A stretch of 64,000 nucleotides of DNA from Sinomonas notoginsengisoli (GTDB lineage: Bacteria; Actinomycetota; Actinomycetes; Actinomycetales; Micrococcaceae). The stretch covers positions 1 through 64,000 of the forward strand of contig NZ_JAIZDP010000008.1 in the NCBI RefSeq assembly GCF_021554725.1, read 5' to 3'. Positions 1,923 to 64,000 of the stretch are shown piece by piece (position 1 is the first letter of the stretch; each line of letters starts with the position of its first letter). The notes beneath the pieces are model-generated. The model did not search any database, had not been told where the DNA came from, and was given only the letters and a program-made list of their open reading frames with translations. The position numbers were made by a program, and so were the translations under genes.

Positions 1923-2657
1923 ATGCTCCGATCATCCTCCTTCTCGCCTGCCCGGCCACGGCGCTTCGACCGCTACACGTCCGCGGACGCACTCGCCGTC
2001 GTGCTGTACCTCGGTCTGCCCTTGGCTCTGGTCTTCCTGCCAGTCGACCGGCTCGCGTGGCTCACGAGGGACCCGCTGCTGGGCTCGTACCTGCTGAATC
2101 TCGTGCTGTACGCTGCGGTGTTCGTCGCGGCAATCGTGGCCGCGCGGCGATACGTGGTCCGAGACGCGCGGATCCTCGCGACCCGGCCGTTGTTCACGCT
2201 AGGTATCCTGCCGCTCCTGCTCGTGGCCATGCTCATCGTCACGGCGATCGTGGTGGCCCTCTCCGGCGGAGTCCAGATCTCGGTGAACCAGTCCGGCCTG
2301 GAGGACATGACCGCGCACGTGCCGTGGTGGCTCACGGCCCCGCTCCTGGTGCTTGTGGGGCCGTTCGTCGAGGAGTACATCTTCCGGCACCTCATGATCG
2401 GCAAGCTCAGCCAGTACCTAAACCGGTGGGCGTGCTACGCGGCATCGGTGGTACTGTTCGCATCGCTGCACATCGCGGGCCGAGAGGCCATTACGGTCCA
2501 GGCACTCGCGCCCTATCTGGGGCTGGGCTTCGTGCTCGTGTTCGCGTATGCCTGGACGGCCAACAACCTGATGTTCAGCTACTCCCTGCACGCCCTAAAG
2601 AACCTGCTGTCCGTGGTGCTCATGTATACGGTGGACATCAGTTCGCTGACTTCCTAG
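1923..2657 (+). CDS. CPBP family intramembrane metalloprotease
   Basis: A 244-residue multi-pass membrane protein of the CPBP (CAAX protease/bacteriocin-processing) family. The three signature motifs are in order: EEYIFR in the VEEYIFRHLM segment, FASLH about 30 residues later, and a late HALKN motif. These supply the expected catalytic Glu and metal-binding His residues. Several hydrophobic helices flank them. A GTG directly before the ATG could also start translation. It is followed after six bases by a YceI gene and may be cotranscribed with it. The substrate is unknown. Confidence 0.85.
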   Translation: MLRSSSFSPARPRRFDRYTSADALAVVLYLGLPLALVFLPVDRLAWLTRDPLLGSYLLNLVLYAAVFVAAIVAARRYVVRDARILATRPLFTLGILPLLLVAMLIVTAIVVALSGGVQISVNQSGLEDMTAHVPWWLTAPLLVLVGPFVEEYIFRHLMIGKLSQYLNRWACYAASVVLFASLHIAGREAITVQALAPYLGLGFVLVFAYAWTANNLMFSYSLHALKNLLSVVLMYTVDISSLTS

Positions 2658-2663
2658 GAATCC

Positions 2664-3350
2664 TTGAGCAAGCGCATCCTCCTCGTCCCGCTCGGCATTG
2701 TGGTGACGGTGATCCTTGCCGTCGTGATCGGTGGCCCGATCATCGCCTCCGCGATCCGGCCCCAGCAGGTGGACCCCTTCACCATCACCGGCGTCGCTTC
2801 CTCGGGAAGCACGACGCCGCGCCCCGCCGGCGCGGACAACGGCGTCTGGGCGGTGGGCAGCGGATCGCAGGCTGGATACCGGGTCAACGAGGTGCTCAAC
2901 GGGGAAGCCCTGACCGTGGTGGGCCGTACCGAGCGGGTCGCCGGATCGGCCACCGTCGCGGACGGGAAGCTGACGGCCGCGAGCGTCGTGGTCGAGGCGG
3001 GGAGCATCGCCACGGACAATTCTGGCCGGGACAACTACTTCCGCTTCACCGTGATTTCCGCGGGCAAGTACCCGCAGGCCACCTTCATCCTCGACTCGCC
3101 TGTTGCCCTCCCCGAGATCGGCGGGGCGCCGGTGGCGGTGACGATGCCCGGCACTCTGGCCTTCGCCGGCGAGAAGAGGGTGGTCGCTGCAGAGATGAAG
3201 GTGGTGCGCGACGGCGATCGCATCGCTGCCGCCGGGTCAGTCCCCATCGCCGTCAAGGACTTCGGGATCGATCCGCCGAACCTCGGCTTCGTCAAGGTCG
3301 AGGACCACGCGACAGTCGAGTTCCGGGTCAATCTGGATCACAAGCCTTAG
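2664..3350 (+). CDS. YceI family protein with N-terminal membrane anchor
   Basis: A 228-residue protein starting at TTG with one N-terminal transmembrane helix (residues about 5-27) and an extracytoplasmic YceI-like lipocalin domain. YceI landmarks include the GRTERVAGSATV region, ATFILDSPVALP and the late FGIDPPNLGFVKVEDHATVEF. YceI proteins bind isoprenoid-type lipids; what this one binds is unknown. The TTG start is supported by the membrane segment that follows and by AGGAA just upstream, though the spacing is short. It ends shortly before a large inverted-repeat cluster. Confidence 0.8.
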   Translation: MSKRILLVPLGIVVTVILAVVIGGPIIASAIRPQQVDPFTITGVASSGSTTPRPAGADNGVWAVGSGSQAGYRVNEVLNGEALTVVGRTERVAGSATVADGKLTAASVVVEAGSIATDNSGRDNYFRFTVISAGKYPQATFILDSPVALPEIGGAPVAVTMPGTLAFAGEKRVVAAEMKVVRDGDRIAAAGSVPIAVKDFGIDPPNLGFVKVEDHATVEFRVNLDHKP

Positions 3351-3365
3351 GCCCGGGCTGATGGC

Positions 3366-3455
3366 TTGAGGGGTCACTTCCGGGTTGAGGGGTCATATCC
3401 GTGACCACTCAGCACAGGGAAGTGACCCCTCATCCTTGGGAAGTGACCCCTCAAC
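3366..3455. repeat. two forward and two inverted copies of a GGGAAGTGACCCCTCAA element
   Basis: Two copies of TTGAGGGGTCA-N2-TCC (3366-3381 and 3385-3400) are followed by two inverted copies (3417-3432 and 3438-3455). The outer pair is a perfect 16-bp inverted repeat. The cluster sits between convergent genes (YceI and ABC-F), so it could fold into a bidirectional terminator or cruciform. The same core recurs as direct repeats at 8390-8453. Confidence 0.85.
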
Positions 3456-3465
3456 CGTCGGGGGG

Positions 3466-5217
3466 TCAGTGGTGGGCGTGGAGGTGTCCGCTGCCGGAGC
3501 CGACCGGCTCGAGCGCGAGCCGCCGCCCGCCGTCGAACGCGGCCGAGAACCACCGGGCCAGCGCCCGGTCGTGGCTCGCGACCACCAGCGTTCCCCGATA
3601 GCGCGTCAGCGCCTCCTCCAGCTCCCCCACGAGCAGCGGCGCGAGGTGGTTGGTCGGCTCGTCGAGCAGGAGCAGCTCGGGCCGGCCCGCGAGGATCCGT
3701 GCCAGCGCAAGGCGCCGGTACTGGCCCGCAGAGAGCGAGCCTACGGGCACGAAGAAGTCCTGCACCCGGAACAGTCCCGTGTGCATGAGCCGCTCGGCGT
3801 GGTCGTCAAGGTCGCCGGGCAGCCCGGCCGCGTACGCGGCGAGGAGGCGGACGTGCGGGTCAGCCGGCGCGGGGAGTTCTTGCGGGAGGAGTGCCGCCGC
3901 CGGTCCCGGCTCCATTGCGCTCCGGTGAGCCGCCACGCCCGCGATGAGCCCCAGGAGCGTGGTCTTCCCCGCACCGTTGGGACCCGTGACAAGCAGCCTC
4001 TCCCCAGGCACCAGCTCAAGCTCCAAGGGCCCGAGCCGGCCCGGCACTCCGGGGCAGGCCAATGCCACGCGCGCGCCCGACTCGACCTCGAACGCGGCCG
4101 CGAGGTGCAGAGGGCGCGGCGGGGGCAGCACAGGATCGGCCTCGAGGCGCCGAAGCCGCTCGCGCGCCGAACGAATCTGGCTCTCGACAGCCCCCGAGAC
4201 CCGCTGGCCGAGGTAGTTGTACCCGGACTTGTCGCCGTCCGTCCTGCGCCCGTACGCCACGCGGTCTGTGACGTCGGCGGCCTTGCCGCGCTCGCGCTCC
4301 TTCGCCTCGACCCACGCGGCGTAACGGCGCGCCCAGTCCCGCCGCTCCCGCGCCTTCTCAGCGCGGTACCCCGCGTAGCCGGCGCCGTAGCGTCGCACGG
4401 AACGGGTGTCGCCGTCGACCTCGAGGATCACCCGGGCGAACCGGTCGAGGAAGTCACGGTCGTGGGAAACAGCCACGACGATCCCGGGCCGGGCGGCGAC
4501 CTCCGCCTCGAGCCATGCGAGCGCAGCGGCATCGAGATGGTTGGTGGGCTCGTCGAGGAGCAGGATCGGCGCTGGATCCGCGAGCGCGAGGGCCAGCGCG
4601 ACGCGCTCCGCCTCGCCGCCCGAGAGGCTGCCGAGCGTGCGGTCCTTGCCCTCCCGCGCCAGATGGCCCACGCCGAGCCGCTCAAGGGCGATCGCGGCGG
4701 CGACCTCCGCACGGACGACGGCGTTCCCCGCCTCTGAGGGGTCGGCCTCCTCGCCGCTGGGCTCGCCGCGGTCGGCGGCCTCCGCTTCCGCGGCCCGCTC
4801 AGCAGCCGTGGTGAGGAGCGCGCCCAGGGTGGCAGCGGCGTCGAGCGTCTGGGCTAGGCGCGACGTGCGGCCGTGGACGGCGACTGTCCCCGAGTCGGGG
4901 CGTTCATGGCCGGCGAGGAGCCGCAGGAGCGTGGACTTTCCGGCCCCGTTTTCGCCCACCACCGCAATCCGCTCGCCGTGGGCGATCGCCAGATTCACAC
5001 GATCCAGGAGGAGTCGGTCGCCGTATCCATGGCTCACCTCCGTGACGGAGATGTGGACGGACCGGCGGCGCGTGGCGCGGCCGGGCTCGCCCAGCTCGGG
5101 GCGGCTGCGCTGGAATCGGTTCAGGGGTGCATGCATGGCTGGACTCGCTTGGGCGGCGGGCAGGGTGCGCCCGGGCGGACGGGGATCGGGGAAGCGGTCA
5201 GCGGAGCATGCCTTCAA
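3466..5217 (-). CDS. ABC-F family ATP-binding cassette protein
   Basis: A 583-residue protein with two ATP-binding cassettes and no membrane domain, the layout of ABC-F translation factors or antibiotic ribosome-protection proteins. Cassette one has GENGAGKST, LSGGEAERVALA and LLLDEPTNHLD. Cassette two has GPNGAGKTT, LSAGQYRRLALA and LLLDEPTNHLA. An Arg/Lys/Glu-rich linker joins them. The first 27 residues look unlike the family, so the ATG at 5136 may be the true start. Whether it protects ribosomes from a drug or has a housekeeping role cannot be decided from the sequence. Confidence 0.9.
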   Translation of the reverse strand: MKACSADRFPDPRPPGRTLPAAQASPAMHAPLNRFQRSRPELGEPGRATRRRSVHISVTEVSHGYGDRLLLDRVNLAIAHGERIAVVGENGAGKSTLLRLLAGHERPDSGTVAVHGRTSRLAQTLDAAATLGALLTTAAERAAEAEAADRGEPSGEEADPSEAGNAVVRAEVAAAIALERLGVGHLAREGKDRTLGSLSGGEAERVALALALADPAPILLLDEPTNHLDAAALAWLEAEVAARPGIVVAVSHDRDFLDRFARVILEVDGDTRSVRRYGAGYAGYRAEKARERRDWARRYAAWVEAKERERGKAADVTDRVAYGRRTDGDKSGYNYLGQRVSGAVESQIRSARERLRRLEADPVLPPPRPLHLAAAFEVESGARVALACPGVPGRLGPLELELVPGERLLVTGPNGAGKTTLLGLIAGVAAHRSAMEPGPAAALLPQELPAPADPHVRLLAAYAAGLPGDLDDHAERLMHTGLFRVQDFFVPVGSLSAGQYRRLALARILAGRPELLLLDEPTNHLAPLLVGELEEALTRYRGTLVVASHDRALARWFSAAFDGGRRLALEPVGSGSGHLHAHH

Positions 5218-8483: not shown

Positions 8484-9692
8484 GTGAACTTGGACCCAGT
8501 GCTCTCCGCGCTCGCCGCCGCATTGGCCGGCGAGGGCCCGGCCGTCGAGTTCGGGCCCGCCGGGGGCGGCGAGACGGGGCGCACCCGCGAGCCCTCCCTC
8601 GCCGCGCGCGCCCGGGCGCACGACGCCGCGTGGCGGCTCTGGCAGCCATCGGCCAGCGCGGAGGCCCTGCCCGCGGGGACGGCCGTGGTGGTGCGCACAT
8701 CCGGCTCCACGGGTGTGCCCAAGGCGGCGGCACTGACGATCGACGCACTCGCGGCCTCCTCGATGGCCACAGCCATCGCGCTCAAGGGCGAGGGCCAGTG
8801 GCTCCTGGCACTGCCGCTCGAGTATGTGGCGGGCGTGCAGGTGCTGGTCCGCTCGCTGTACGCAGGCACCCGGCCCTCCGTGATGGACCTGTCCGGCGGC
8901 TTCACTCCCGAGGCCTTCGCCGACGCAGCCGAGGCGCTCACCGATCCAGTCCGGTTCACGTCGCTGGTGCCGACCCAACTGCGGAGGCTCCTCGATGACG
9001 GCTCGCCTCGGGTCCTCCTGGCGCTCGCACGCTTCAAGGCCATCCTCCTCGGCGGCGCCCCGATCCCGCCCGGCCTGCTCGAGCGGGCGCAGGGGTTCGG
9101 GATCCGGGTCGTGACCACGTACGGCTCGGCGGAGACGTGCGGCGGATGCGTGTACAACGGCGAGCCGCTCCAGGGCGTCGAGGTCGAACTCGTCGACGGC
9201 CGGGTGTGGCTCGGCGGAGACGTGGTCGCGGCCGGATACGTGGGCGACCCGGAGCGCACCGCAGAGCACTTCCGCACCGACGAGCACGGGCAGCGCTGGT
9301 ACGTGAGCTCGGACGTGGGGGAATTCGGGCCGGACGGCCGACTGCGCGTCCTGGGGCGCGCTGACGACGTGGTGATCACCGGCGGCGTCAAGGCCTCGGC
9401 CGCGCGTGTTGCCGCGGAGCTCGACTCGCTTCCGGGGGTGCGCGAGGCCTTCGTGGCCGGCATCGACGACGCCGAGTGGGGCCAGGCGCTCGCCGCCGCG
9501 CTGGTGCTCGTCCCGGCGGAGGGCCCGCAGGAGGCAAGGCTCGACGCGGTGCGCGAGGCCGCCGTCGTTCGGCTGGGACGCCTCGCTCCGAAGACTTGGC
9601 TCGTGCTGGACGCGCTCCCCCACCTGCCCAACGGCAAGCCGGACCGGCTCGCGCTCACCGAGCTGCTGCGGGAGCGGCACGGCCTCACCTGA
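8484..9692 (+). CDS. menE: o-succinylbenzoate-CoA ligase (AMP-binding)
   Basis: A 402-residue adenylate-forming ligase, short for the superfamily as many actinobacterial MenE proteins are. The phosphate loop is RTSGSTGVPKAA near residue 75. The second motif TTYGSAETCGG is near 212, RLRVLGRADDVVITGG gives the hinge, and the catalytic Lys lies in PNGKPDRLAL near the C-terminus. The position between menB and menA supports o-succinylbenzoate as substrate. The GTG start is preceded by GAGAGG. The upstream repeat array may influence expression. Confidence 0.9.
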   Translation: MNLDPVLSALAAALAGEGPAVEFGPAGGGETGRTREPSLAARARAHDAAWRLWQPSASAEALPAGTAVVVRTSGSTGVPKAAALTIDALAASSMATAIALKGEGQWLLALPLEYVAGVQVLVRSLYAGTRPSVMDLSGGFTPEAFADAAEALTDPVRFTSLVPTQLRRLLDDGSPRVLLALARFKAILLGGAPIPPGLLERAQGFGIRVVTTYGSAETCGGCVYNGEPLQGVEVELVDGRVWLGGDVVAAGYVGDPERTAEHFRTDEHGQRWYVSSDVGEFGPDGRLRVLGRADDVVITGGVKASAARVAAELDSLPGVREAFVAGIDDAEWGQALAAALVLVPAEGPQEARLDAVREAAVVRLGRLAPKTWLVLDALPHLPNGKPDRLALTELLRERHGLT

Positions 9693-9740
9693 GCACCCCC
9701 GCTGGCTTCAACCCTACGAGCACCCCGAAGGAACAAACCC

Positions 9741-10622
9741 GTGGCAACCCTCGCCCAATGGATCTCCGGCTCACGCCCGCGCACCCTGCCGATGGCGGCC
9801 GCCCCCGTGGTGATCGGCAGTGCGGCCGCGTTCGGGCTCGACGCGTTCAAGCCGGCGAACGCGGTGCTCGCGGCCCTCGTGGCCGTCCTCCTGCAGGTGG
9901 GCGTGAACTACGCGAACGACTACTCCGACGGCATCCGCGGCACGGACGACAACCGGGTCGGACCCTTTCGGCTCACGGGATCCAAGGCGGCTGAGCCGGC
10001 CGAGGTGAAGCGCGCTGCCTTCCTCGCGTTCGGGGCCGCGATGGTGTTCGGCCTGTTCCTCGTGGTGCTGTCCCAGACCTGGTGGCTGCTCCTGGTCGGA
10101 GCAGGCTGCGTCGCGGCCGCGTGGGGCTACACCGGCGGGAAGAACCCGTACGGGTATCTGGGGCTGGGCGACGTGTTCGTGTTCGTGTTCTTCGGCCTCG
10201 TGGCCACCCTCGGCACCACCTACACGCAGGCTGGCACGCTCAGCGCGGCGTCGTGGGTCGGCGCGATCGGGACCGGACTCATCGCTGACGCCCTGCTCAT
10301 GGCCAACAACGTGCGCGACATCCCCACGGACCGTGTCTCCGGCAAGCGCACGCTGGCGGTACGGCTTGGGGACTCGCGCGCCCGCAGGGCGTATGTGCTC
10401 ATGCTCGGCGTCGCCGTCCTAGGCTCCCTCGTGCTCGTCCCGTGGAACCCGTGGATGCTCGTCGTGCTGCTCCTCGTGCCGGCATGTCTCACGCCGACGT
10501 GGCTCATGCTCGGCGGCAAGAGCGGCCCGCGGCTCATCCCGGTCCTGGCCCAGACGGGCTTCATCAACCTCGGCTACGCGGGACTGTTCTCGCTCGCGAT
10601 CGTGCTCGGAGTGCTCCTCTAG
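9741..10622 (+). CDS. menA: 1,4-dihydroxy-2-naphthoate polyprenyltransferase
   Basis: A 293-residue UbiA-superfamily membrane enzyme that attaches the prenyl tail to dihydroxynaphthoate. The first aspartate motif is NYANDYSDGIRGTDD near residue 55. The second, NNVRDIPTDRVSGKRTLAVRLG, is near 190. Both fit MenA rather than UbiA. Around eight hydrophobic helices are visible. The GTG start has AAGGAA upstream. Its stop shares CTAG with the stop of the convergent DUF4229 gene. Confidence 0.93.
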   Translation: MATLAQWISGSRPRTLPMAAAPVVIGSAAAFGLDAFKPANAVLAALVAVLLQVGVNYANDYSDGIRGTDDNRVGPFRLTGSKAAEPAEVKRAAFLAFGAAMVFGLFLVVLSQTWWLLLVGAGCVAAAWGYTGGKNPYGYLGLGDVFVFVFFGLVATLGTTYTQAGTLSAASWVGAIGTGLIADALLMANNVRDIPTDRVSGKRTLAVRLGDSRARRAYVLMLGVAVLGSLVLVPWNPWMLVVLLLVPACLTPTWLMLGGKSGPRLIPVLAQTGFINLGYAGLFSLAIVLGVLL

Positions 10623-57385: not shown

Positions 57386-57495
57386 GGGAGTGCGAGGGCC
57401 GCGCGGATGATTCCGAGGAGGAAGCCTCGGACCTCGTCGCTTCGCATGATCACCACGAGGAGGCCTGCGAACGCCACTGCGCCGAGAGTCGCCAA
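57382..57495 (-). pseudogene. DUF4244 pilin gene, 3' remnant
   Basis: Only the last 37 codons remain: from LATLGAVAFAGLLVVIM through RGFLLGIIRAALALP to the TGA. Intact DUF4244 (Flp pilin-like) proteins have about 25-30 further residues with a TAEYA motif before this point. Here the reading frame meets a TAA at 57496-57498 and the similarity stops. The break is the edge of the foreign region to the right, so an element has inserted into, or a deletion has removed, the tad operon. Confidence 0.7.
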
Positions 57496-57555
57496 TTATA
57501 GGGAGGTGCGGGCGCTAACCCCCGGGGCCCGCGAGAGTGAAAGGAGTGCCCGGCA

Positions 57556-57747
57556 ATGTGCAACGACAAGCGCCTAGCGCCCGAGGTACTGAGGAAGATG
57601 CCTTGTCTGGTCCAGCTCGCCGACTACGCGCACGAGAACGGCCTCGAGACCCGGGCCGTACTTGATGCAGCGGCGGCGGATGCTGCTGAGAACCGCTCGG
57701 CGTGGGGTGATGGCAAACAAGGCGACGACGACCGGCCTTCGGCTTGA
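57556..57747 (+). CDS. small hypothetical protein at the island edge
   Basis: A 63-residue ORF with AAGGAG nine bases upstream. The first half is helical (PEVLRKMPCLVQLADYAHENG) and the end is charged. No family is recognised. It is the first gene inside the foreign region and points toward AbiV. Confidence 0.45.
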   Translation: MCNDKRLAPEVLRKMPCLVQLADYAHENGLETRAVLDAAAADAAENRSAWGDGKQGDDDRPSA

Positions 57748-57760
57748 TGTACGCTTGCCC

Positions 57761-57808
57761 GAAGCTGCGGCGCGTCTCGTATCCCCCATGCGGACGCGCC
57801 GTCGCTTC
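57761..57808. terminator. imperfect hairpin between convergent genes
   Basis: GAAGC-TG-CGGCGCGTC pairs with GACGCGCCG-TC-GCTTC over 14 of 16 positions around a 16-base loop. It can end the small plus-strand gene and possibly AbiV. Confidence 0.6.
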
Positions 57809-57843
57809 TCACTCTGCGGGGCTCAGGCGGGGGCCCTTTTTCG

Positions 57844-58674
57844 TCAGACGTCGGGAGCTTCCCCTGGGTCCTGCATCAATGCCCAAAGCTCGCGGTCGTG
57901 CGCCTCATAGCCTGATCGGCCGAGATTCTCGAGGGGGTTGTCCGGCAGCCGAAATGCATAAGCCTCATTGTTAAGCTTCTTGCCTTGGGTGCCCTTGCGC
58001 ATCGACTCGAGTATGCGCTCTGACATGTCCTGATCGACCCGTCGCATGAGGGTACGCATGCCCTGGATGTCGTCCTCATTCATGGGCGGTACGTCCCGTT
58101 CTCGCTCCATGCGTCTCTTCCCCTCGATGTGCTCGCCGAGACGGAGCTGCCACCCGATCTGATGAATGTGGCCGACCACGGCCCGAACAATCTGCGCGTC
58201 GGCAGTGTCCTGGGGCGTGATCGGGTCGCCTGCCGGGCTTACATCCACATAGAACCCGCGCTGCTTGAACGTGTTGTGGTCGCGCTTCCACTCATCGATA
58301 GTGCCGAGTACCCTTTCGTTCTCTTCCGGGAGAGGCCAATCGCTGCCGAACCAGTACTGCTCGCGCACGAGGAAGCCATGCACCTCGTCGAGCTTGAGGA
58401 CATGATCGCCCCACAACCTCCGGAGGCCCGCGTCCAGGAATGCCTCTCCCTCAGGGACGTCGGCCATGCGAACACGGCGATTGTGCAGAGCGATCGCCTT
58501 CCCGGACTCCTCCATGCCGAGAATCGCAAGCGAGCGGGCCAGCGTGACATTGCCGGAGTCGAGCATTGTCAGCGCGGCGTGGAGGAGCTGATCGGCGTTC
58601 GCGAGCAGGGCATCCTGCAGTGCAATCACCTGTGCGGGAGACAGGTCTGCGGGTAGATGTGATTTGCGGGCCAT
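57844..58674 (-). CDS. AbiV family abortive infection protein
   Basis: A 276-residue, mostly helical protein. The AbiV signature is in ALLANADQLLHAALTMLDSG and ARSLAILGMEESGKAIALHNRR (residues about 25-70). AbiV of Lactococcus stops phage growth by blocking phage translation through a phage-encoded partner; the same activity here is inferred. The start at 58674 leaves out an unrelated open frame through the capsid gene. It lies beside a capsid gene and near a TAC module, so the region is rich in defence functions. Confidence 0.78.
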   Translation of the reverse strand: MARKSHLPADLSPAQVIALQDALLANADQLLHAALTMLDSGNVTLARSLAILGMEESGKAIALHNRRVRMADVPEGEAFLDAGLRRLWGDHVLKLDEVHGFLVREQYWFGSDWPLPEENERVLGTIDEWKRDHNTFKQRGFYVDVSPAGDPITPQDTADAQIVRAVVGHIHQIGWQLRLGEHIEGKRRMERERDVPPMNEDDIQGMRTLMRRVDQDMSERILESMRKGTQGKKLNNEAYAFRLPDNPLENLGRSGYEAHDRELWALMQDPGEAPDV

Positions 58675-58736
58675 GGGCCAATTCTCTGCCAGAGGTCCGA
58701 CACCACACGGAAGCCATGAGCGACGAGTTCTTTTAG

Positions 58737-58774
58737 AAGGGGACGGTCCCCTAGCCGCGGTGGACCGTCCCCTT
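58737..58774. terminator. 13-bp perfect hairpin upstream of abiV
   Basis: AAGGGGACGGTCC (58737-58749) pairs with GGACCGTCCCCTT (58762-58774) around a 12-base loop. It lies after the capsid gene on the minus strand and insulates abiV from it. Confidence 0.8.
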
Positions 58775-58845
58775 CGTTTGGGGGGGCGGCGCTGGCGGGA
58801 CTCCGGGCGAGGGGGTGAAAGGGCCCCTCTCGTCCCGCCATCGTT

Positions 58846-58877
58846 CCCCCACCCGGCCCAGCTCGGCCCGGTGGGGG
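58846..58877. terminator. GC-rich hairpin after the capsid gene
   Basis: CCCCCACCCGGCC (58846-58858) pairs with GGCCCGGTGGGGG (58865-58877) with one mismatch around a six-base loop, 21 bases after the capsid stop. Together with the hairpin at 58737 it makes a double terminator. The rest of 58675-58898 shows nothing more. Confidence 0.7.
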
Positions 58878-58898
58878 TGGCGTTGACGCCGCGGTCTG

Positions 58899-60407
58899 TC
58901 AGAACGTCGGCGCGATCAGGCCGTTGCCGGCCGTCGTGTCCACGCCGCCGACCTTCGCGACCGCCTGCGGGTACCTCCCGGCCGTGAAGGCGACATACCC
59001 GTAGACGACGAGCTTCGTCGTCAGCGACCCGCCGGTGGTCTGCTCGAAGGACAGCTGCCGGGGCATCCCGTCGCCGTCCTCCCACAGGAGCAGCTGGTCC
59101 GCGTCCACGGAGAGCACCAGGTCCTCGCTGAGCGTGCCCACGGTGGTCGGGACGTTCAGGTCCAGCAGGACCGGGAGCCCCGAGTTGTGGACGCCCACGA
59201 ACGGGGTCTCGACGTTCGCGAGGTCCTGGTTGCCGAGCCCGCCCTGGGCGATCGTGTTGTACGCGACGTTCAGGTTGGACTGGACGATGGGCCGGTTGGT
59301 CGTGTCCACGAGGCCGCACAGCCACGACCAGCGCCGCGGGTGCATCACGAGGAGCTCGGGCGCGAGGCCCATGCCCGCGGAGTACACCGCGTTGTTCGCG
59401 CCGGCGACCTTGAGGTTGAAGTTCGCCGGCCCGGCCACGGCGCCGAACGCCGTCGCCGCGCCGATACCGGCCGTGTTCAGGATGCCCAGGGCCTGGCCTG
59501 CTGCGCCCGAGCCGTTGATGATCTGCGTGTCCTCGGCCGCGGCGTAGGCCTTGACGAGGTCCATGTAGATCAGCTGGTCCACGCCCGCGCCGCGCTCGAG
59601 GGACTGGCGGGACACGTCCTGCGCGCCGGCGATTGTCACCACGGGCACGGTGAGGTTCGCCCACACCTCGTCCGTGGAGGACACCGCCGAGTTCTCGGAC
59701 GACTGCACGGCCGCGGACGCGCCGGTGGTGCCGCGCGGGATGACCAGGGACATGCCCTGCTCGGGGATCGGCAGGCGCTGGACCACGTTCGCCAGCGGGC
59801 GGCCGTTGCGGAGCACGAGGGCCGCCTGCTCGACGAGGTACTGGGGCACGACGAGGCCGGCGAACGAGCCGGTGGACGTCGCGCGGGCGCTCATCTCGCG
59901 GTGGTGCTCGACCTCGCGCGCGTGCCGCTCGACGCGGTCGCGCGCGCCCCCGTCGGTGCCCTGCATGAACCGGAACGCGTCGGCGAAGAACGAGATGCCC
60001 TGCGCGTTCGTCCGCCGGTCGTACGTACGCGGCTCGCGCGTGTCCCCGGTGCGGATGACCGAATCGTAGGCGCGGCCCCCGACCCGGTACTCGTACTCGC
60101 CGCCGCCGACGCCTGCCGCGCGGGTCGCCGCGGCCGTGGGGACCACCTGCGCCTGCGCGCGGCGGACCTCCTCGTCGGCCTCCTGCTCGGCCTCGTACAT
60201 GCGGAGGCGGTCCTTCATGGTGTCGAGCTCGCCGTCGAGCGCGTCCTTCTGGGCGCGCACCGCGCGGACCTGGGCGGGGTCGACCTCACGGCCGGCCGCC
60301 TGCGCGTCACGGAAGCCGGCGAGCTGGTCTGCGAGGCCGTTGCGCGTCGCGAGCGTGCGCCGGATGCTGTCCTTCGTGGTCTGGATCACTTCAGGGATGG
60401 TAGTCAT
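58899..60407 (-). CDS. HK97-type phage major capsid protein
   Basis: A 502-residue capsid protein. Residues about 1-90 are a charged helical delta-like scaffolding region (IQTTKDSIRRTLATRNGLADQL). The HK97 fold follows, with SFAGLVVPQYLVEQ near 190, QRLPIPEQGMSLVIPR and a helical spine including RQSLERGAGVDQLIYMDLVKAY. No portal, protease or terminase is beside it. The start is supported by GGGGAG upstream. The open frame to 60749 adds 114 residues without capsid character and is not used. The gene fits a phage satellite or decayed prophage. Confidence 0.85.
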   Translation of the reverse strand: MTTIPEVIQTTKDSIRRTLATRNGLADQLAGFRDAQAAGREVDPAQVRAVRAQKDALDGELDTMKDRLRMYEAEQEADEEVRRAQAQVVPTAAATRAAGVGGGEYEYRVGGRAYDSVIRTGDTREPRTYDRRTNAQGISFFADAFRFMQGTDGGARDRVERHAREVEHHREMSARATSTGSFAGLVVPQYLVEQAALVLRNGRPLANVVQRLPIPEQGMSLVIPRGTTGASAAVQSSENSAVSSTDEVWANLTVPVVTIAGAQDVSRQSLERGAGVDQLIYMDLVKAYAAAEDTQIINGSGAAGQALGILNTAGIGAATAFGAVAGPANFNLKVAGANNAVYSAGMGLAPELLVMHPRRWSWLCGLVDTTNRPIVQSNLNVAYNTIAQGGLGNQDLANVETPFVGVHNSGLPVLLDLNVPTTVGTLSEDLVLSVDADQLLLWEDGDGMPRQLSFEQTTGGSLTTKLVVYGYVAFTAGRYPQAVAKVGGVDTTAGNGLIAPTF

Positions 60408-60816
60408 GGCAAACACTCCCCGTGGGGATAGATGGGTTGCTGAAAGAGGGTGAAGCCTCGAGCCGGGGCGCACCAGGACCGGCACCGTGGGTGCGGGCAC
60501 TGTGGCGCGCGTGTCGTGCTTCGCGGGAGGATAGCCGCACTCCCATGCCCAGACGGGGGACCCGTAGGTTCCACCCCGCGCGAGCCTGGCCACCAGATAC
60601 CGGCCGTCGCTGGCTATCCGGTCGCCGACACGAGGCTCCTCTCGGAGGGCGGAGGCCGTAGCGCCCGTTGACGCCCGGGGCGCCCCGTGTAGCTGTAGCA
60701 CAGATTCTACGCCTCGAACTACAAAGGTGTAACTAATTGCGGCGAGCAAGTCGTAGACTCAGGCCACAGCCACCACACACGTGGCGGGGGGAGCCGGGGG
60801 TTCACGTCTGATGCAG

Positions 60817-60832
60817 TTTAGGGTACTCTAAA
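60817..60832. promoter_or_regulatory. operator-like palindrome at the TAC promoter
   Basis: TTTAGGGTACTCTAAA is a 16-bp palindrome with one mismatched pair. It ends one base before the toxin start codon and contains TAGGGT (60819-60824), a leaderless-type -10 box. This is where an autorepressing antitoxin would bind. The remaining gap 60408-60816 holds no convincing gene. Confidence 0.65.
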
Positions 60833-61348
60833 GTGGATCGAACGATAGTGGTCAAGGGTTCTTGCCACGAGATCGCGTGCGCGGTCATCAAGGACGGCCG
60901 TTCGCCTGCGGGTGAGGCGCTGAATCAGTTGACCCAGGGGATGTGGGAGGCCGACCCGGATGCCGAGACTCTACCGGACGACGCTCAAATTTCCGACGCC
61001 GATCTGTTCTTGACTGGACTGGAGTTTTTCGCAAACAACGGGGTGCCTCATAGCCCGTCCGTCAAAATGAACTCGCTTAATTATGGGATCTGGGAGTTCA
61101 AGGTCCGTCGGAAGAGATTCTCGTTCTATGAAACGGATGGGCGAGGCGGCAAATTCGACACGAGAAAGATCACCGATCGCGATCAAAGCCTCGATCCTTA
61201 TGATGAATACTTCTGGCACGTACCCGATTTTCAGAAGCTCATTCGTTTGGGCCATTGCTTCGGCAAGGATACTCAGTCAACGACTGATAAGGACCTGAGG
61301 CGTTGTCGACAGGTGAGACAGGAGGATCTGGAACATGACCGCGGATAA
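60833..61348 (+). CDS. putative toxin of a toxin-antitoxin-chaperone module (HigB/RelE-like)
   Basis: A 171-residue protein starting at GTG. Its C-terminal half follows the Gp49/HigB pattern: YGIWEFKVRRKRFSFYETDG, then after an insertion KLIRLGHCFGKDTQSTTDKDL, comparable to the LLHGF-KKTQKTP-EI ending of RelE-like mRNA interferases. The first 85 residues are extra and unrecognised. It overlaps the antitoxin gene by 14 bases. Cleavage of mRNA at the ribosome is the family activity; it is inferred here and the long N-terminus could change it. Confidence 0.65.
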   Translation: MDRTIVVKGSCHEIACAVIKDGRSPAGEALNQLTQGMWEADPDAETLPDDAQISDADLFLTGLEFFANNGVPHSPSVKMNSLNYGIWEFKVRRKRFSFYETDGRGGKFDTRKITDRDQSLDPYDEYFWHVPDFQKLIRLGHCFGKDTQSTTDKDLRRCRQVRQEDLEHDRG

Positions 61349-61907
61349 GCCAACGCTCATTGAGCAGCGACAATCTTCTAACTCTGGGCGACTCGGCATA
61401 GCCGCTGCCCGGCTTGCTGTGCAGGCGGCCCATCTCCTGAGTTCAGCGTTTGCTGCCCGTCGCGATATTGACCAGAAATCGCTTGCTGAGTTGATTGGCG
61501 TTTCCGAGGGCCGTGTCTCGCAGGTTCTACATGGGGATGGAAACGTTCATGTTGCAACACTGGCCAGATACCTCGCCGCACTCGGGTACGAGATCGAGAT
61601 TACGGCTAAGCCAGTCGAGCCTAGTGCGCAACCACTAGAGTCTCCCCGCCGATCCTCGCGGGGCGTCAGGCGACGTGATGAGCAGGCATTCCGCCAGGCA
61701 CTCCACCAGTACAAGGTCAAGGTTGCGAGAGGCTGGGACGTGCGGGACGAGACTCTCTTAGTTGCCGGTCATTCGGGTACTCATGCCCCAGTGTTCCTGG
61801 AGGCTCCGGTTAGGGTGTCAGTGGGGACACTCCAGGAGCTCTCGCAGCCCTCACGTGCGGCTGAAGATATGCGGCTGCGAACGCCTGAAGTATCGGGGAC
61901 ACTGTGA
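61335..61907 (+). CDS. putative TAC antitoxin, HTH with C-terminal chaperone-dependence extension
   Basis: A 190-residue protein. Residues about 40-75 form a Cro/C1-type helix-turn-helix (DIDQKSLAELIGVSEGRVSQVLHGDGN) followed by the antitoxin-like ATLARYLAALGYEIEI. The last 95 residues are polar and poorly structured, which is where HigA1-type antitoxins of TAC systems carry the chaperone addiction segment. AGGAGG gives a strong ribosome-binding site. The operator-like palindrome before the operon fits autorepression. Confidence 0.7.
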   Translation: MTADKPTLIEQRQSSNSGRLGIAAARLAVQAAHLLSSAFAARRDIDQKSLAELIGVSEGRVSQVLHGDGNVHVATLARYLAALGYEIEITAKPVEPSAQPLESPRRSSRGVRRRDEQAFRQALHQYKVKVARGWDVRDETLLVAGHSGTHAPVFLEAPVRVSVGTLQELSQPSRAAEDMRLRTPEVSGTL

Positions 61908-62347
61908 CTGCCACCCAGACCATGAACGACATTCTTGTATTGCAGGGTGTTTATCTATATGAGGCCACTGCAGTTCGCTATGATGGCGTGGCGTGGAGCG
62001 AGCCTATGGACTTATCGATTTCCATTGAAAATGGAACTGCGATTCTAGATGACGGAATGGTGGAGGCCCGTAGCGTCTGCTCGTTCAGAGTGAAGAATGG
62101 TGACGACGATTTCGCTCTCTTGATCTCGCAGTACCGGGCCAGATTCAACGTCACGGGTTCATCTGATAACATCGATCTCTCTGAGGGATCGCCGTTGGGA
62201 GCAGACGTCAACGCATGGATGCTGAATTACATCTACCCATATCACCGTCAGCTGATTTCTGATATGAATTCGAGAATGGCTCTTCCTCCGTTTCCGTTGC
62301 CGACTTTCGATGGACGGCAGTTCCAAGGGATGCAGTCCTCGAACTAA
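61904..62347 (+). CDS. SecB-like chaperone of the TAC module
   Basis: A 147-residue protein that follows the SecB fold. It has the opening LQGVYLYEATAVRYDG, central strands FALLISQYRARFNVTG, and the C-terminal helix IYPYHRQLISDMNSRMALPPFPLPTF, which matches the FPYAR...ISR-G-PPL-LPP block of SecB. Actinobacteria generally lack export SecB, and such copies serve TAC modules, as Rv1957 does in M. tuberculosis. The GTG overlaps the antitoxin TGA (GTGA), so all three proteins are made in a fixed order. Confidence 0.8.
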   Translation: MTATQTMNDILVLQGVYLYEATAVRYDGVAWSEPMDLSISIENGTAILDDGMVEARSVCSFRVKNGDDDFALLISQYRARFNVTGSSDNIDLSEGSPLGADVNAWMLNYIYPYHRQLISDMNSRMALPPFPLPTFDGRQFQGMQSSN

Positions 62348-62558
62348 TCACTGAGCCTTGAATACGCTACGTTAGGCCGGGTCAGATCGGGGAGAGAAAA
62401 ACTGGTCGACTGGCGTGGGTCTGCCGCGTGCTCGATTCCTAAAAAACCTGGGCCGTGGCGCGCCCAGTGCGCTGCTGTGGGCGCTGGAGGGGGCGGATGC
62501 GCCCGAGTGCACTGCTTGGGCATGTGGGCGGCCCTGCGGGGCGTGTGGCGCGTCTGGC
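62348..62558. other. intergenic stretch without visible gene
   Basis: Between the chaperone and the leftmost small minus-strand gene I see no supported ORF, hairpin or repeat. Open frames here are high-GC shadows. Confidence 0.5.
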
Positions 62559-62885
62559 TCACGCTGGCGCGTCCCCGCCCGGTCGTGCCTGCCCGGGGCC
62601 GTCGCCGCCGAACGCCTCGCGTGCCTGTCCGCTGTCCGCGCCGGCGATCTCCACCCATCTGCGGAAGGCCTCGAGCGCTGCAGCCTGGGTGCCGTGGTGC
62701 TGGTGCATGGCGGCGGCGAACCAGGGCAGCAGCGTCATGGTGACGGCCTCGGCCCATCGCCGCCGCGCGGCGGGGTCTGCCTCGCGTCTGAGCTGGCGGT
62801 AGAGGGGCACGGGATCTTCGCCGTTGAGCATGGTGGTGGCGAGCGCCTGCGCGTCGCGCATGATCGCCTGGGGGTCGAGGGTCAT
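62559..62885 (-). CDS. hypothetical protein of the mobile element
   Basis: A 108-residue helical protein (MTLDPQAIMRDAQALATTML, AVTMTLLPWFAAAMHQHHG) with a Gly/Pro-rich tail. Its ATG overlaps the stop of the preceding gene (ATGA), so it is the last of a run of small coupled genes. No family is recognised. Confidence 0.6.
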   Translation of the reverse strand: MTLDPQAIMRDAQALATTMLNGEDPVPLYRQLRREADPAARRRWAEAVTMTLLPWFAAAMHQHHGTQAAALEAFRRWVEIAGADSGQAREAFGGDGPGQARPGGDAPA

Positions 62886-63142
62886 CGGTCTGCTTCCTGG
62901 TGAGTGCTGGTGTGCAGCGCGTCGAGGGTGTCGGCGAGAGCGGAGGCGAGGCGGTAGGCGGCTGGGAGGTCGAGGAGGATGCGGGCCCTGCCTCCGGTCA
63001 TGATCAGGACGCCGTCGTGCTGTTCGCCGACAGTGTCGGTGAGCCCGGCGGAGCGGACGTGGACGGTCGTGCTGTCCTCCTGTGCCCGTCCCCAATCATC
63101 GCGGCGGGCTTGATATCGGGGCCGGTGTGCCGGGCGTTCCAT
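62882..63142 (-). CDS. hypothetical protein of the mobile element
   Basis: An 86-residue protein with AGGAGG four bases before the ATG. The C-terminal half (HDGVLIMTGGRARILLDLPAAYRLASALADTLDAL) looks folded. It overlaps the next gene upstream by 139 bases in another frame, so one of the two overlapping ends may not be translated as drawn. Confidence 0.6.
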   Translation of the reverse strand: MERPAHRPRYQARRDDWGRAQEDSTTVHVRSAGLTDTVGEQHDGVLIMTGGRARILLDLPAAYRLASALADTLDALHTSTHQEADR

Positions 63143-63303
63143 GGGTCCTCCTGTGTGTCGGCCAGCTGAACGAGTCGCCGGTTGGCGATGCGGAGCTGCC
63201 TGTTCGCCGCATCGAGGCGTTCGGCGAGCCACTGCAGCTCGCGGCGGGTGAAGGGCTCGAGCCAGGGCCGCGGTGCCCAGTCCGGCGGGACTGTGTCGGT
63301 CAT
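63004..63303 (-). CDS. hypothetical protein of the mobile element
   Basis: A 99-residue protein. The N-terminal part is a Trp-containing head and a likely coiled coil (RRELQWLAERLDAANRQLRI). The C-terminal 45 residues overlap the following gene in another frame and look random. GAGGAG is seven bases before the ATG. Spacing and strand place it after the AT-rich region in the same run. Confidence 0.55.
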   Translation of the reverse strand: MTDTVPPDWAPRPWLEPFTRRELQWLAERLDAANRQLRIANRRLVQLADTQEDPWNARHTGPDIKPAAMIGDGHRRTARPSTSAPPGSPTLSANSTTAS

Positions 63304-63346
63304 CGGGTGCTCCTCGGCTCGAAGCTCGCGCGCGTTACTCGGGATG

Positions 63347-63379
63347 ATAATAATAATTCTTATTCTCATTTATTATTAT
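63347..63379. repeat. AT-rich inverted repeat
   Basis: ATAATAATAA (63347-63356) and TTATTATTAT (63370-63379) flank a 13-base loop. This is the only strongly AT-rich stretch in the window and resembles a DNA-unwinding element. Confidence 0.8.
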
Positions 63380-63423
63380 GAAATTCCGATTGGTGAGATT
63401 GAAAACTGGGGCGAGTACAGAAT

Positions 63424-63468
63424 CGGGTCGGGTCGGGTCGGGTCGGGTGGGGTCGGGCCGGGTCGGGG
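63424..63468 (+). repeat. GGGTC pentanucleotide repeat tract
   Basis: CGGGT/GGGTC units are repeated about eight times, with two variants. The tract lies between the AT-rich repeat and the iteron-like array. Confidence 0.9.
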
Positions 63469-63472
63469 TAGC

Positions 63473-63519
63473 GTTACTAACGCCGTTACTAACGCGTTAC
63501 GTAACCCGTTACGTCACGC
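63473..63519 (+). repeat. iteron-like array of four GTTAC-type repeats
   Basis: GTTACTAACGC at 63473 and 63485, GTTACGTAACCC at 63496 and GTTACGTCACGC at 63508 are spaced 11-12 bases, about one helical turn. With the AT-rich repeat this suggests a replication origin or a phage regulator site. Confidence 0.7.
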
Positions 63520-63840
63520 CTTACGCTGCCGGAAGCGCTGCTGCCGCTCCCGTTGCTTGCGTCTGCGCTCCATGACATCCGCGGCCTGTTCCTGGTCGAC
63601 CCAGTCGAGAATGTAGGTCCCCTCGGCGTGCACCCACAGGCCCGCGGCGACGAGCTCCGGGATCGCCTCCGGGTGGCTGAGTATCCTGCCGAGCAGTGCG
63701 GGGTCCGCCGGCAGCACGCCGTCCGTGAGCTGCCGGTTGCACCAAACGAGCGCCTCCACATGCGTCCTGAAGGCGGCGTCCGAGAGGCCGAGGACTTTGG
63801 GCCTGTCCACGAAGTCGTCCGAGAGCCTGGTCCAGGTCAT
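63514..63840 (-). CDS. phage replication-associated protein (replisome organizer-like)
   Basis: A 108-residue protein: MTWTRLSDDFVDRPKVLGLSD, a central helical part with EALVWCNRQLTDG and GRILSHPEAIPELVAAGLW, then YILDWVDQEQAADVMERRRKQ and a strongly basic tail. This pattern occurs in actinophage and integrative-element proteins near replication genes. The role as a replisome organizer is a guess. Its ATG overlaps the preceding stop (ATGA). Confidence 0.6.
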   Translation of the reverse strand: MTWTRLSDDFVDRPKVLGLSDAAFRTHVEALVWCNRQLTDGVLPADPALLGRILSHPEAIPELVAAGLWVHAEGTYILDWVDQEQAADVMERRRKQRERQQRFRQRKA

Positions 63841-63977
63841 GCTGCCTGGCCCCGGTCTGCGCGCGGGCGGAGGAGGGCTGCGATCGCGTCAATCTGCTCG
63901 GGCGTGAGCGCGGGGGCAGCAGCCACGACCTGCTCGACATACGCCTCGAGCTGCGCTGCGTACTCCTCGATCGTCAT
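63837..63977 (-). CDS. small hypothetical protein of the mobile element
   Basis: A 46-residue helical, acidic protein (MTIEEYAAQLEAYVEQVVAA, LTPEQIDAIAALL). GGGAGG lies upstream. Its TGA overlaps the next start (ATGA). Its size suggests an accessory factor; no family is recognised. Confidence 0.6.
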   Translation of the reverse strand: MTIEEYAAQLEAYVEQVVAAAPALTPEQIDAIAALLRPRADRGQAA

Positions 63978-64000
63978 CGCGCCGCCGCCTCCCGGCGGAA

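Follow-up and report, generated by a model that had tools for sequence, protein, structure and literature searches.

In Mycobacterium tuberculosis, the HigB1-HigA1-SecBTA operon (Rv1955-Rv1956-Rv1957) encodes a toxin, an HTH antitoxin extended at its C-terminus, and a SecB-like chaperone. The catalytic residues of this toxin-antitoxin-chaperone (TAC) toxin are E66, R68, R77, F93, and K95, and their equivalents in Streptococcus pneumoniae HigB are E66, R68, R73, and K92 (PMC9098466). For the pneumococcal protein (PDB 6af3/6af4), which has a modelled chain of about 115 residues, a SecB-like partner is not described in the sources cited here. Chaperone addiction has been described (PMC5105189). 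In Escherichia coli, the phage-defence TACs CmdTAC, MqsRAC, and HigBAC are likewise organised in three parts, one of them a SecB-like chaperone; in several cases studied, TACs protect this host against phages, and chaperone-linked phage sensing has been reported for CmdTAC and HigBAC (PMC11618068, PMC9519451, PMC11980606).

We analysed a window of 64 kb, meaning the whole stretch of DNA under study, and found in it an operon of this three-part kind:

60817..60832, no strand: imperfect palindrome TTTA-N8-TAAA, TTTAGGGTACTCTAAA, 16 bp, directly before the toxin GTG
60833..61348, + strand: toxin of the HigB/Gp49 fold, 171 aa, GTG start, with a loop insertion
61335..61907, + strand: antitoxin, HTH_3 domain (E=6.1e-6, above the cut-off) and polar tail, 190 aa
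61904..62347, + strand: SecB-like chaperone by family profile and fold, 147 aa

The three ORFs (171, 190, and 147 aa) overlap one another, span 60833-62347 on the + strand, and are all unbroken. The earlier note on this DNA had described three overlapping genes, a 16-bp palindrome ending at the first start codon, and an operon less GC-rich than its surroundings, and each of these points is borne out: the palindrome, though imperfect, abuts the GTG, and the G+C content of the operon is 0.552, versus 0.693 in the rest of the window. Moreover, among 2395 sliding 1.5-kb windows of the 121-kb contig, the operon region ranks fourth from the lowest in G+C, and the lowest one begins at the operon itself. 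The operon contains a SecB-like gene, a toxin of a known type II family, and an antitoxin with a C-terminal extension. We therefore hold with high confidence that it is a type II TAC module of the HigBA-SecB class, the architecture that the note had recognised, because the profiles, the folds, the held-out homologues, the gene order in relatives, the active-site residues, and the mobile context all agree.

How does the toxin compare with the known HigB proteins? Its match to Gp49 (PF05973) reaches 18.7 bits (E=0.0019), under the Pfam gathering cut-off of 23.9, and 7 of its 12 homologues match Gp49 at E<=1, the best at 6.1e-6. A toxin profile built without the window protein retrieves it at 1.5e-62. 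Structure prediction and comparison with the Gp49/HigB profile, both proposed in the note, were run, and the HigB fold was found. In a Foldseek search, the AlphaFold2 model (pLDDT 85) matched S. pneumoniae HigB at the top (prob 1.0, TM up to 0.78 by target), over ~150 columns of the 171-residue model, and M. tuberculosis HigB1 (Rv1955) second. The pneumococcal protein is thus the closest solved fold, nearer than HigB1, and the order of its active-site residues is identical. By motif and spacing, the M. tuberculosis catalytic residues correspond to E88, K90, R95, F143, and K145 of the window toxin. Among the 12 homologues, which share 33-47% identity with it, E88, R95, F143, and K145 do not vary, and position 90 holds either K or R (alignment A5). 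The fold and most of the catalytic positions are common to HigB1 and the window toxin, and K99 of the former has no counterpart, being Ser149 here. Consistent with the description of the first protein as HigB/RelE-like, the model places the toxin in the Gp49/HigB fold, by fold and profile rather than by the Pfam cut-off.

The “extra 85-residue N-terminus” attributed to this toxin turned out to be wrong. Family-profile positions 58-99 align with residues 55-96 of the S. pneumoniae HigB chain, and the toxin therefore has no extra N-terminal domain; its first 85 residues correspond to the first half of an ordinary HigB fold, in keeping with the extent of the Foldseek match. The insertion claimed alongside it is real: in the model, the extra material is mainly a loop of ~30 residues, at about 102-135, between the core strands 94-101 and 136-144, and it is modelled at low confidence (pLDDT about 59-68 in mid-loop). 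This loop makes the toxin longer than HigB1, and S. pneumoniae HigB lacks it. It is also missing from the distant relatives L022-L024, two of which keep a chaperone gene. The loop was also considered as the cause of chaperone dependence, and this was rejected: L022 and L024 lack it and still carry a chaperone gene. A tblastn search with the toxin against phage and plasmid records gave no match.

In the antitoxin, the HTH_3 domain occupies residues 43-88 and is followed by a polar C-terminal tail of 102 residues, in agreement with the HTH protein with a long polar C-terminus that had been proposed. A held-out antitoxin profile retrieves the window protein at 2.6e-49. The tail measures 48-119 residues in the aligned relatives, versus 28 in L023, a locus without a chaperone gene in which the antitoxin is followed by another frame, which we take to be glutamine-synthetase-like. 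This relation between tail length and chaperone presence agrees with chaperone addiction, with L023 as the one contrasting locus, and the tail is a candidate chaperone-addiction region. By eye, it holds no clear match to the WxRxxxYR-type motif of M. tuberculosis.

The third protein matches SecB (PF02556) at E=0.021 and 15.2 bits, under the Pfam gathering cut-off of 26; among 12 third-gene homologues, four match at E<=1, the best at 3.3e-4. However, searched against the PDB, a profile of these 12 proteins hit the TAC chaperone Rv1957 (4.7e-12), and a held-out profile retrieved the window chaperone at 1.2e-15 among 771 contig ORFs, the next best reaching 0.26. In the AlphaFold2 model (pLDDT 79), a long helix accompanies four strands, and Foldseek placed Rv1957 and E. 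coli SecB at the top (prob 1.0, TM about 0.7-0.8). No other PDB entry matches the family as well as Rv1957, whether by sequence or by fold. As modelled, the third protein has the SecB fold, as the note had supposed; lack of a SecB match by profile or structure had been named there as grounds for abandoning the idea, and the protein matches by both. In L032 (5898-6902) and L019 (95-1102), the SecB-like proteins carry a C-terminal extension of ~175-190 residues.

The relatives were collected from genome searches, one provirus contig (L008), and a profile scan of contigs (L026-L037). They are rare, occurring in 6 of 396 genomes sampled from the same order, and are scattered over the Actinomycetota; one, L034, lies on a contig binned as Planctomycetaceae. 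A toxin gene followed by an HTH gene on the same strand was found in all 23 relative loci examined, and a profile-detected SecB-like gene is third in 18 of them. In L007, L011, and L012, the third gene resembles the SecB C-terminus by eye only, with weak or absent SecB profile support (E 0.018, 1.7, and 0.036). The L021 locus is decayed. The toxin gene is frame-broken in L007, L021, and L036, while the antitoxin is still open, as is the SecB-like gene of L036. In addition, L068 and L069 are more distant Gp49-HTH pairs, and their third gene is SecB-like by eye.

In Microbacterium suaedae (L031, 6016-6414; the same as L003:2510-2908), a DUF6941 gene (PF22091, E=4e-10, hmmscan) takes the place of the SecB-like gene and starts one base after the antitoxin end. 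The genome search for DUF6941 did not list this genome, G069, in spite of the hmmscan value. An hhalign comparison, run with a profile built from just 2 sequences, gave no support for kinship between DUF6941 and SecB. At 15 other actinobacterial loci with a DUF6941 gene, none of the neighbouring genes matches the toxin, antitoxin, or chaperone, and the L031 case is therefore isolated. It is doubtful that the subfamily has a swappable third partner, with DUF6941 taking over the chaperone or sensor role for the antitoxin in a TAC-like system without SecB.

The palindrome TTTA-N8-TAAA is unique in the 64-kb window, even when one mismatch is allowed. Counting the window, 20 loci carry it at or near the toxin start, 16 with the exact motif and four with one mismatch (L008, L011, L034, and L036), and it was not found in L022 and L024. 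In the 243.8 kb of the window and relatives, the exact motif occurs 16 times, once in each of 16 loci, and off-target near-matches are limited to two, at L023 1717 and L035 5341, with one mismatch each. In most members, the right half encodes the x-Lys-Val at the toxin start, and may therefore be kept partly by the protein, but this does not account for the left half. The Lys codon in the palindrome is AAA, while AAG prevails elsewhere in most of these genes. In the simplest reading of this distribution, TTTA-N8-TAAA is probably the operator bound by the HTH antitoxin, and it differs from the operator of the M. tuberculosis TAC. A TANNNT in the left half is not claimed as a leaderless promoter, since in some relatives the sole start codon would then precede the transcript.

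The operon lies within a mobile element that extends beyond the window end:

57487..64000, no strand: window part of the mobile element, which continues to about contig 65700
57844..58674, - strand: AbiV-like HEPN protein, candidate defence gene (PF18728 E=6.5e-26)
58899..60407, - strand: major capsid protein gene (PF05065 3.2e-20; PHROG major head protein 6.1e-46)
63514..63840, - strand: replication-initiator-like short protein (phrog_2447 E=2.2e-20)
contig 64302-65654: serine integrase (PF00239/PF07508; phrog_95 2.1e-93)

The initiator-like protein is short and matches longer phage initiators over their N-terminal third, an excisionase-like ORF lies in the element beyond the window end, and small phage-type genes are also among the neighbours. 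One half of a Flp-pilin-type gene stands at either end of the element, GMATAEYAIATLG and TLGAVAFAGLLVVIMRSDEVRG; the gene is interrupted at codon ~ATLG (window 57402-57490; L014:1680-1800), and the same gene is whole in G251, G229, and G760. This split at both ends, with intact copies elsewhere, indicates the insertion of an element of ~8.2 kb, and the split pilin gene was taken as its boundary; no convincing long exact att repeat was found at the element ends. The integrase, the phage-type genes, and the split gene together uphold the suggestion of a mobile element. With an integrase, an initiator-like fragment, and one capsid gene, its gene content resembles that of a phage satellite (PICI-like), and a degraded prophage or prophage remnant is a possible alternative.

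What is the operon for? Besides the AbiV-like gene in the element, which the PADLOC models used did not recognise, defence genes and phage genes also accompany the relatives. In L011 and L012, type I restriction genes flank the operon, hsdM/hsdS on one side and hsdR on the other; in L035, the second such case after the window, an HK97-type capsid gene (2599-3702) lies shortly upstream, and a TIR-domain gene (9683-10489) downstream; L034 has a phage tail gene at the locus, and L027 a phage integrase nearby. The AbiV gene, the restriction genes, the capsid and TIR genes of L035, and the tail gene of L034 suggest a defence role, and by analogy with the studied TACs we lean towards phage defence as the function of the operon. 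Alternatively, the TAC may be purely an addiction module that keeps the element in the chromosome, with the chaperone guarding the antitoxin and sensing no phage. The location inside an integrated element fits this explanation, as does the presence of relatives on prophages or other mobile DNA, which is expected of any addiction module; however, the defence gene neighbours (AbiV, type I restriction, and TIR) and the phage defence by the studied TACs (PMC9519451, PMC11618068, PMC11980606) argue against addiction only, and we consider it the less probable answer, albeit one with an appreciable chance. The two roles are compatible with each other.

The TAC reading itself has points against it, namely the toxin and chaperone scores under the Pfam gathering values, the three third genes without SecB-profile support, the DUF6941 gene of L031, Ser149 in place of K99 in the toxin, and a relation between tail length and chaperone that has a single chaperone-less locus behind it. 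The operon could be a two-gene HigBA-type pair, in which the third protein is unneeded for neutralisation and the SecB-like gene is an accessory. L023, with a toxin and an antitoxin alone, indicates that the pair can exist by itself in the wider group, but the SecB-like gene stands immediately third in 18 of the 23 relatives, and the relatives that keep it have long antitoxin tails, and this makes the two-gene explanation very improbable. About as improbable is an operon that is decaying cargo, with a toxin that has lost catalysis or acts on another target. In favour of this, M. tuberculosis HigB2 and HigB3 were non-toxic under conditions where the TAC toxin was toxic (PMC9098466), some relatives have frame-broken toxin genes, and K99 is replaced by Ser149, but the window frames are intact and the four catalytic residues E88, R95, F143, and K145 are invariant.

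For the TAC module, we propose the following mechanism. The antitoxin would bind the toxin and repress the operon at the palindrome, and through its tail it would rely on the SecB-like chaperone of the operon. Loss of this chaperone, or its occupation by, for instance, an abundant phage structural protein, would lead to loss of the antitoxin in turn. The freed toxin would then cut mRNA in the ribosomal A site, and growth or phage production would stop. That phage activates the module seems to us somewhat probable. The toxin sets this operon apart from two of the E. coli systems: CmdT is an ADP-ribosyltransferase, whereas the window toxin has the HigB fold, so the operon is not a CmdTAC, and MqsR belongs to another nuclease family.

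The TAC kind is already known, and what is new here is the probable operator, the loop of the toxin, and the isolated case of DUF6941 in place of the SecB-like gene. The NCBIfam and PADLOC models gave no name for the toxin or the SecB-like protein, and the window operon represents an actinobacterial TAC subfamily without a label in the curated libraries (Pfam cut-offs, NCBIfam, and PADLOC). This branch now has a ready diagnostic, TTTA-N8-TAAA at the toxin start. Its loci with the SecB-like gene present, absent (L023), or replaced by DUF6941 (L031) lend themselves to a comparison of chaperone addiction, and in the window a TAC stands next to AbiV and a capsid gene on a mobile element of an actinobacterium.
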